Source: Chloroflexota bacterium (GTDB taxonomy: Bacteria > Chloroflexota > Limnocylindria > Limnocylindrales > CSP1-4). From it: a DNA stretch of 64,000 nucleotides. A program made the translations under genes and the position numbers. Each line of letters starts with the position of its first letter. Position 1 is the first letter of the stretch. The stretch lies in contig PLMA01000058.1 in the NCBI GenBank assembly GCA_003141455.1, positions 41,214 through 105,213 on the forward strand, in the 5' to 3' direction. The notes below the pieces were generated by a model. That model made no database searches and had not been told where the DNA came from. It worked only from the letters and a program-made list of their open reading frames with translations. Shown here in pieces: positions 23,551 through 43,925 of this stretch.

Positions 23551-23820
23551 TCAGTCCCAACAAACCTCGTCGTCCACGCCGTCGACCGTCCAGCGGCGCG
23601 ACCAATGCTGGAAGCTCAAAGCCAGGCGAGCGCCGGGCGTCTCGACCTCGAAGACGGTTCGGGGCCCTACGGCGGCTTTGTAGGCCGAGTGTTCTCGACG
23701 AACGGCAGTGAGCCGTCTCACCGGCAGGCGGACCTGGCCCCAGGTGATCTCGCGCGGGGTGCCGTCGAACCAGTCGGCTCGAACGCGCACATCCACAGGC
23801 TCCATGCGGACGATGGCCAT
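23551..23820 (-). CDS. Small DUF6504-like protein, predicted LexA-regulated
   Basis: 89 aa, VDVRVRADWFDGTPREITWGQVRLPVRRLTAVRRE...WTVDGVDDEVCWD; family call from memory of pattern, moderate. Confidence 0.6.
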   Translation of the reverse strand: MAIVRMEPVDVRVRADWFDGTPREITWGQVRLPVRRLTAVRREHSAYKAAVGPRTVFEVETPGARLALSFQHWSRRWTVDGVDDEVCWD

Positions 23821-23877
23821 TGTGGTTGCTCCTCTTGCCTTTGGCGGGCCGTCGCTCGCTCGGGCATTGAGCGGGAT

Positions 23878-23930
23878 GAACGGACGTTCTATTACTAACC
23901 AAATCTACCTGAACGGATGTTCTATGTCAA
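23878..23930 (-). promoter_or_regulatory. Promoter with two LexA-type SOS boxes upstream of the 89-aa gene
   Basis: Minus strand TTGACA (23925-23930) - N17 - TAGATT (23902-23907); GAACGGATGTTC (+, 23911-23922) in the spacer and GAACGGACGTTC (23878-23889) downstream; box centres 33 bp apart. Confidence 0.7.
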
Positions 23931-24079
23931 GGTTTGACGTTTCGAACGTCCGGTCATGGCAAGAGGATCGCCGGCGCGGGTGACAGCTAGCGTGGCACGG
24001 CGGAGGCGTCGCTCGGGTCGACTTATCGCAGCGCCCTCCGCCCGGTCTGGAATACGGGCGGCCAGTCGGGCACGGGCGC

Positions 24080-30029: not shown

Positions 30030-31277
30030 CTAGCCCTCGTCCTCGACTTTCGGCACGCCCACGCGGCCCTCCACCGCTGAGGCGGGATCGCGCTCGAAGG
30101 GTGCCGGCAGCGGCCGATGCAGCAGGCTGGCGCGGGTGACGGCGCGATCGCCGAAGCGCCGCCGGACCGCGTCCGTCGCGGCGACCACGCGCCGCTGCCT
30201 GGATTCCACGACCTCGAACATGGTCGTCTGCTCGGGCTGGCCGAGCTGAGTCGCCGCGACCCCGAGAAGCCGGATCTTCTTGCCGCGGACCTCGGGCCGG
30301 GTCAGCTCGAGCGCCGTCCGCCAGATCGGCTCCGTCAGGTCCGACGGCTCGGGCAGATGCTTCTGGCGGGTGACCGTCCGGAACTGCGAGTCGCGGATCT
30401 TGACCGCCACCGTCCCGGCGCGCAGGCCGGCGGCTCGCAGCCGGGCGGAGACCCCCTCGGTCAAGGCGAGCAGCGTGCGCTCGATTTCGGCCGGGTCCGT
30501 CACGTCGACCGCGAAAGTGGTCTCGTGGCTCACGGATTTCGCCGCTTCGCCGCCGCCGACCACCGGATCCGCGTCGATGCCCAGCGCTCGATCGTGCAGT
30601 GTCCCCCCGTGATCGCCGAGAGCGCGCGCCAGCGTCTCGACCGGCAGCGCCGCCAGTTCGCCGATCGTTCGAATCCCGAGTCCGTGCAGCCGCTCGGCCG
30701 TCTTGGGCCCGATTCCCCAGAGCCGCCGGATCTCGAGCGGGGCCAGGAAGGCCGCCTCCTCGCCGGGCTGCACGACCACCAGGCCGTCGGGCTTGCGCAG
30801 GTCGCTGGCCACCTTGGCGATCAGCTTGTTGGTCGCCACGCCGACCGAGACGGTGAGCTCCGTGGCCGCGACCACCTCGGTCTTGATACGGCGGCCGATC
30901 TCCGGCGCGGTCCCGAAGAGCGCCTCCGAACCGGCGACGTCCAGGAAGGCTTCGTCGATCGAGACCTGCTCGACTGCCGGCGTGAAGCGCCGCAGCACGG
31001 CCATCACCTCGCGGCTGACGCGCTGGTACTTGGCCCCGTCGACAGGCAGGAAGATCCCCTGCGGGCAGAGCCCGAGCGCCGTCCGGAGAGGCATGGCCGA
31101 ATGCACGCCGAACCTGCGAGCTTCGTAGCTGCAGGTGCTCACGACGCCGCGGGACCGCGGGTCGCCGCCGACGATCACCGGCTTGCCGCGCAGCTCGGGG
31201 CGGTCGCGCTGCTCCACCGCGGCGAAGAAGGCGTCCAGGTCCACGTGGATGATGTGGAGGCGGCCGACCGTGGTCAT
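30030..31277 (-). CDS. dinB: DNA polymerase IV
   Basis: IIHVDLDAFFAAVEQRDRPELRGKPVIVGG; YSRV-like and SIDEAFLDV motifs. Confidence 0.95.
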   Translation of the reverse strand: MTTVGRLHIIHVDLDAFFAAVEQRDRPELRGKPVIVGGDPRSRGVVSTCSYEARRFGVHSAMPLRTALGLCPQGIFLPVDGAKYQRVSREVMAVLRRFTPAVEQVSIDEAFLDVAGSEALFGTAPEIGRRIKTEVVAATELTVSVGVATNKLIAKVASDLRKPDGLVVVQPGEEAAFLAPLEIRRLWGIGPKTAERLHGLGIRTIGELAALPVETLARALGDHGGTLHDRALGIDADPVVGGGEAAKSVSHETTFAVDVTDPAEIERTLLALTEGVSARLRAAGLRAGTVAVKIRDSQFRTVTRQKHLPEPSDLTEPIWRTALELTRPEVRGKKIRLLGVAATQLGQPEQTTMFEVVESRQRRVVAATDAVRRRFGDRAVTRASLLHRPLPAPFERDPASAVEGRVGVPKVEDEG

Positions 31278-43226: not shown

Positions 43227-43255
43227 TTGACAATCGAACGGGCGTTCTGTACCCT
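43227..43255 (+). promoter_or_regulatory. lexA promoter with embedded LexA-type box
   Basis: TTGACA (43227-43232) - N17 - TACCCT (43250-43255); GAACGGGCGTTC at 43236-43247 within the spacer. Confidence 0.75.
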
Positions 43256-43274: not shown

Positions 43275-43925
43275 GTGACCAAGCACGACGCGGAACGCAA
43301 ACGCAAGATCCTGGACTTCATCGCCGCGACGCTTCGCACGCGCGGCTATCCGCCGTCCGTCCGTGAGATCGCCGTCGCCGTGGACCTGGCTTCCACCTCG
43401 GCGGTCCACCACCACCTCCAGATGCTCGAGCGTGAGGGCTACCTGGAGCGCGGGGCCGCTCAGTCGCGGGCCATCCGCCTGACGCCGCTGGCCGCCATGC
43501 GCCTCGGGCTCTCCGGCGAGCTGATGCCACAGTCCGTCGCCTCGGAGGCTCACGTCCTGCCGATCGTCGGCGAGATCGCCGCCGGTGGTCCTATCGAGGC
43601 CTACCAGGACGCGTCGGAGAGCATGGCCGTACCGGATCTGCTGGCGCCCTCCGGAGATGCGTACGTCCTGCGCGTCCGGGGCGATTCGATGATCAACGCC
43701 CACATCCAGGACGGGGACTTCGTCCTGATCCGGCCCCAGCAGACGGCCCGTGATGGGGACATCGTGGTGGCGCAGGTGGAAGAGAACGCCGTCACTCTCA
43801 AGCAGTTCTTCAAGGAGGCCGGGCGGATCCGGCTCCAGCCCGCCAACCCGGACTACCCGGCCATGTTCTACAACGACGTCCGGATCCAGGGGAAGCTCAT
43901 CGGGGTCATCCGCCGGCTGGACTGA
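43275..43925 (+). CDS. lexA: LexA repressor
   Basis: HTH REIAVAVDLASTSAVHHHLQMLEREGYLERG; S24 domain with GDSMINAHIQDGDFV; GTG start after GGAAGGAGG. Confidence 0.95.
   Translation: MTKHDAERKRKILDFIAATLRTRGYPPSVREIAVAVDLASTSAVHHHLQMLEREGYLERGAAQSRAIRLTPLAAMRLGLSGELMPQSVASEAHVLPIVGEIAAGGPIEAYQDASESMAVPDLLAPSGDAYVLRVRGDSMINAHIQDGDFVLIRPQQTARDGDIVVAQVEENAVTLKQFFKEAGRIRLQPANPDYPAMFYNDVRIQGKLIGVIRRLD

Follow-up and report, generated by a model that had tools for sequence, protein, structure and literature searches.

A small gene behind two LexA-type boxes

The 64-kb stretch of DNA analyzed here (the window) carries, on its minus strand, a gene for an 89-amino-acid protein (the target gene) and, 5' of that gene, two perfect GAACNNNNGTTC sites located 33 bp apart, center to center, both at the places where the original prediction had put them. 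Box 1 falls within the 17-bp spacer of a promoter reading TTGACA-TAGATT, again as predicted, with box 2 another 33 bp downstream. The relevant features are as follows.

23551 to 23820, minus strand: target gene, encoding an 89-aa ImuB-C/DUF6504-like protein, assigned from its orthologues, its dN/dS ratio, and its homology to imuB-linked DUF6504 proteins
23829 to 23834, minus strand: RBS-like GAGGAG, 8 nt before the ATG, as read from the sequence
23878 to 23889, minus strand: LexA-type box 2, GAACGGACGTTC (minus-strand reading, GAACGTCCGTTC), past the -10 element, where the start site/leader is presumed to lie; kept in orthologues
23902 to 23907, minus strand: -10-like element TAGATT, 17 bp from the -35 element
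23911 to 23922, minus strand: LexA-type box 1, GAACGGATGTTC (minus-strand reading, GAACATCCGTTC), inside the promoter spacer; kept in orthologues
23925 to 23930, minus strand: -35 element TTGACA, 2 bp before box 1
23944 to 23955, minus strand: possible third, imperfect box, GACCGGACGTTC, with one mismatch; weak
30030 to 31277, minus strand: dinB (Y-family DNA polymerase IV), without a box, assigned from PF00817 (E=2.6e-53) and its neighborhood
43236 to 43247, plus strand: LexA-type box in the lexA promoter
43275 to 43925, plus strand: lexA, the presumed regulator (TIGR00498, E=3.5e-58; PF01726 and PF00717)

Among the upstream regions compared, a site similar to the imperfect third box was present in the nearest relative only. 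The promoter of lexA itself is organized much like that of the target gene, with a single box at nearly the same offset, as had been claimed: TTGACA (43227 to 43232) is followed by the box and, after a 17-bp spacer, by TACCCT.

Conservation of the paired boxes and predicted SOS regulon membership

Orthologues of the target gene were found in 133 of the 177 genomes of the class, the named relatives being metagenome-assembled Chloroflexi, mostly labeled as fen isolates, while no member of the family turned up in other classes when 251 genomes of the phylum were searched with a profile. For footprinting, we used 67 upstream regions, a few of them from the same species, with protein identities of 34 to 100%. 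Nearly all of these contain two exact boxes, and in the remaining few, one box is exact and its partner deviates at one position. The spacing between the boxes is 33 bp in the window, matching the predicted three or so helical turns, but ranges from 30 to 37 bp among orthologues (mode, 34), such that the exact phasing is not conserved; in one exceptional locus, with a spacing of 42 bp, apparently only a single box is promoter placed. Alignment of 64 promoters placed TTGAC(A) 2 to 4 bp 5' of box 1 in most cases, and TA-containing hexamers (e.g., TCTAGT or CATAGT) occupy the -10 position in relatives. This conservation in the upstream regions of relatives lifts the target boxes above chance. The gene itself is under purifying selection, with a dN/dS ratio of about 0.1 and changes mostly at third positions. 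One 4.3-kb contig (G034 C29, L102) carries the target gene twice, in inverted orientation, each copy with double boxes, reflecting either a duplication or an assembly artifact.

A survey of loci with the same gene neighborhood showed how specific the boxes are. The target promoter had two boxes in 48 of 52 loci and one in the other 4, and lexA was boxed in all 11 relatives (one box in 10, two in 1), whereas no box was found at the control neighbors dinB (0/42), fchA (0/46), folD (0/41), and fhs (0/30). The gene rplI was boxed in 4 of 22 neighborhoods, probably since rplI of family f2 shares a divergent region with the target gene. In a class-wide search, the paired pattern GAACRNNYGTTC-N15-30-GAACRNNYGTTC was present in 93 of 121 genomes, and its reversed control was present in none. 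Families f3 and f4 do not have the target gene, and their matches to the paired pattern stand at a different gene. These conserved double boxes (f4, L148 to L152, L155, and L156; f3, L154) lie beside a gene for a DEAD/DEAH-type helicase, which we take to resemble the MrfA/SftH helicases; since those examined mostly precede the helicase gene, we ruled them out as further copies of the target locus.

Motif counts were of less use. The window contains three exact boxes, against 0.66 expected, but since 3 of 100 shuffled sequences reach the same number, this count, taken alone, is weak evidence. The genome-wide scan proposed along with the original prediction did not reveal any enrichment of the bare motif, the 3.07-Mb assembly containing 41 palindromic GAACNNNNGTTC sites versus 35 for the reversed control (15 of the 41 fit the narrower form, GAACRNNYGTTC); a bare-core count this close to background is uninformative. 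Similarly, the expectation that recA would be among the hits failed for this genome: unlike ruvB, uvrA, lexA, and imuA, recA (G000 C27, L170) has no GAACNNNNGTTC box. Promoter-placed boxes of the same form are found in the window's genome at ruvB, at uvrA, and at the imuA-imuB-(DUF6504)-dnaE2 operon. The target gene thus has a promoter box that is conserved in its orthologues, in a genome that encodes a genuine LexA whose gene is itself preceded by a matching promoter box. On the basis of the footprinting, the unboxed neighboring genes, and the boxes at lexA, ruvB, uvrA, and imuA, the predicted membership of the 89-aa protein in the SOS regulon is strongly supported.

Elsewhere in the same genome, GAACATGCGTTC occurs approximately 180 bp 5' of the probable start of ftsZ (L087 1201-1212, G000 C68), which could be due to chance or could point to SOS control of division. 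Promoter-like GAACGGCCGTTC boxes were observed before an XRE-type HTH gene (L074 1201-1212, G000 C42) and before a small gene (L081 750-761, G000 C56).

Relationship of the 89-aa protein to ImuB-C

Searched against Pfam and NCBIfam, the target protein gave no significant match. None of the family members tested reached the cutoff of 24.2 bits for PF20114 (DUF6504), the best score being 13.4 bits, and no DUF6504 protein was found in the window's genome at the E-value used. The label "DUF6504-like" in the original prediction consequently holds in the sense of remote homology, as established by profile comparison, and not in the sense of Pfam membership. With hhalign, the target family aligned to the imuB-dnaE2-linked DUF6504/ImuB-C proteins over 74 columns (93.3% probability; E=2.7e-7), and a comparison with a larger set yielded 90% with a score of 36.1, whereas none of 150 column-scrambled or reversed decoys scored above 21.9. 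An earlier comparison with a narrow DUF6504 set had given 13%; significance was reached after more diverse members had been added.

The window's genome also encodes, between imuB and dnaE2 (G000 C36), an 82-aa protein with a weak DUF6504 match (E=6.7e-4), found in 136 of the 177 class genomes. (At about L173 7719-7788, the dnaE2 gene of this genome shows an ambiguous base together with a frame break, probably reflecting an assembly gap.) Some DUF6504 proteins of other Chloroflexota are encoded directly 5' of a DnaE2-like gene, and the C terminus of Agrobacterium ImuB aligns to DUF6504 (E=0.012). Both observations fit the notion that DUF6504 corresponds to the ImuB-C domain of Aravind and co-workers, which would narrow the "unknown function" of the original prediction to that of a translesion mutasome module.

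Structure predictions point in the same direction. The AlphaFold models of the target protein (pLDDT, 85; strands E4-15, 22-27, 30-33, 36-43, 54-60, 65-71, and 76-83) and of its mutasome-linked paralogue (pLDDT, 91; strands E10-15, 21-26, 29-32, 34-43, 50-58, 63-69, and 74-81) are both all-beta, with seven corresponding strands in the same order, a likeness that refers to the strand layouts and not to superposed three-dimensional models. A Foldseek search of the PDB with the target model gave no significant match, and sequence searches of the PDB with either profile yielded no convincing solved chain; for the target, this fits the report that ImuB-C is a novel beta-barrel (PMC12926913). Across 45 target sequences, W77 and R41 are invariant and R54 is nearly so, and hallmarks of the ImuB-C superfamily are a highly conserved C-terminal tryptophan and at least two conserved basic residues (PMC3765255). 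Given the profile homology, a length of approximately 80 mostly beta residues, these tryptophan and basic residues, and the association with genes for a translesion polymerase and lexA, the target protein is best read as a diverged, standalone protein of the ImuB-C type.

A study from 2013 (PMC3765255) describes standalone ImuB-C proteins encoded next to dinB and lexA, and work from 2019 and 2026 (PMC6511836, PMC12926913) returned to these proteins. Like those of the Geobacter sulfurreducens GSU0042 type, found in lexA-imuB-C-polY operons (PMC3765255, PMC6511836), the target protein has about 80 to 90 residues, is beta-rich, contains the conserved C-terminal tryptophan and basic residues, and is linked to the SOS response, with dinB/polY and often lexA adjoining. 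Unlike them, it is too diverged for Pfam, is restricted, among the genomes sampled, to one Chloroflexota class, has its own promoter with two LexA boxes next to an unboxed dinB, and coexists with a second ImuB-C protein. With PF20114 DUF6504 proteins, exemplified by the mutasome paralogue, it shares a co-linear profile alignment of approximately 75 columns and the seven-strand layout, but it scores below the cutoff, has neither the Trp-Trp pair nor the LERLYD ending, and occurs in association with dinB. The UmuD'/YolD-type accessories of Y-family polymerases (PMC6511836, PMC12926913) are likewise small, SOS induced (as predicted for the target), and encoded beside a Y-family polymerase; however, the ImuB-C fold is reported to be different from theirs, the target has no autoprotease domain, and its polymerase gene is unboxed. 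Finally, the boxes share their GAAC-N4-G core with the Streptomyces venezuelae LexA operator, tCGAAC-N4-GNNCGa, and more than one LexA site is also found there at a translesion promoter, that of dnaE2 (PMC9380542); the paired boxes described here differ in serving a small nonpolymerase gene and in being kept across most of a class. New, then, are a class-specific, previously unrecognized branch of ImuB-C, a conserved double operator that this gene has and dinB lacks, and the co-occurrence of the branch with a mutasome-linked ImuB-C.

Proposed role in translesion synthesis

The usual gene order around the target gene, with some variation, is lexA, a YkvA-like gene, rplI, dinB, target, fchA, folD, and fhs. 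Of 52 loci, 45 have dinB upstream and in the same orientation, with gaps of 31 to 3,129 bp, and 3 have it in divergent orientation. The window keeps the usual order, with insertions that place dinB 6.2 kb from the target gene. Because of this distance, and because the gap varies within the genus, co-transcription of the two genes is unlikely in the window; rather, the target gene is served by a promoter of its own, and LexA control would be exerted on it and not on dinB.

We propose that a LexA dimer on the spacer operator, between the -35 and -10 elements, would block RNA polymerase and that a second dimer would bind some 34 bp farther downstream, close to where transcription presumably starts; with both operators occupied, basal expression is expected to be very low. 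Upon DNA damage, RecA-stimulated self-cleavage of LexA would free the promoter, and the product, a standalone, diverged ImuB-C-type protein with a seven-strand beta-domain, would act as a noncatalytic accessory of a translesion polymerase. Its first-choice partner would be the unboxed DinB (Pol IV), encoded beside it in most relatives, with the cell's own LexA-controlled ImuA-ImuB-DnaE2 machine as the alternative. To this reading of the target as a LexA-repressed, damage-induced ImuB-C-type polymerase accessory, in which the accessory role rests on the ImuB-C homology and the gene neighborhood, we assign a probability of roughly 0.7.

For standalone ImuB-C, the combination with dinB is the commonest one, often with lexA too (PMC3765255). 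The target protein may be physically linked to DinB. The C terminus of DinB in these genomes contains a clamp-motif-like stretch and, after it, a D-x-x-R-x-x-F-G-x-x-A segment, which recalls the RecA-NT motif of PMC6511836 and may serve as a lead. With dinB lacking a LexA box and the target doubly repressed, we tentatively speculate that the SOS response governs Pol IV via a small ImuB-C-type partner and not via more DinB, the doubly repressed protein being the switch to a mutasome-like damage-tolerance complex. ImuB-C has been called the least characterized module of bacterial error-prone polymerase complexes (PMC6511836), and a separately controlled, small ImuB-C beside an unboxed dinB offers a simple system for isolating its effect on the polymerase. 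Moreover, a LexA operator and several likely SOS targets are hereby documented in an uncultured Chloroflexota lineage for which we found no published SOS study in the literature searched.

The partner could instead be the ImuA-ImuB-DnaE2 mutasome, with the target serving as a second or alternative ImuB-C: its homology is to an imuB-dnaE2-linked protein, its own genome contains a LexA-boxed imuA-imuB-DUF6504-dnaE2 operon, and ImuB-C has been modeled as touching the PHP domain of DnaE2 and ImuA (PMC12926913). Since that operon already encodes an ImuB-C of its own, and since the conserved neighbor of the target gene is dinB and not imuB, we consider this possible but doubtful. We regard it as unlikely that the protein is no polymerase subunit at all but a damage-recognizing DNA-binding factor that recruits repair proteins, the role put forward for ImuB-C by Aravind and co-workers (PMC3765255); the conserved arginines R41 and R54 would suit such a role, whereas later structural modeling places ImuB-C at protein-protein interfaces (PMC12926913). 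Furthermore, the target sequence shows no known DNA-binding motif.

Small SOS proteins under tight repression often belong to the cell-division checkpoint type (cf. SulA, YneA, and SidA), and the target is of such a size and predicted regulation; nevertheless, its all-beta model without helix or membrane segment, its homology to ImuB-C, and its dinB neighborhood make a role in halting division very improbable. Finally, GAAC-N4-GTTC arrays with 21-bp steps before an ArsR-like winged-helix regulator in three genomes of the same genus (L157 2027-2080, L158 2039-2092, and L159 1984-2058) indicate that the core is not unique to LexA and may be shared by another regulator, but we see hardly any chance that a repressor other than LexA binds the target boxes, as these agree in sequence with the boxes of lexA, ruvB, uvrA, and imuA and, in promoter placement, with that of lexA, which was boxed in all 11 relatives.
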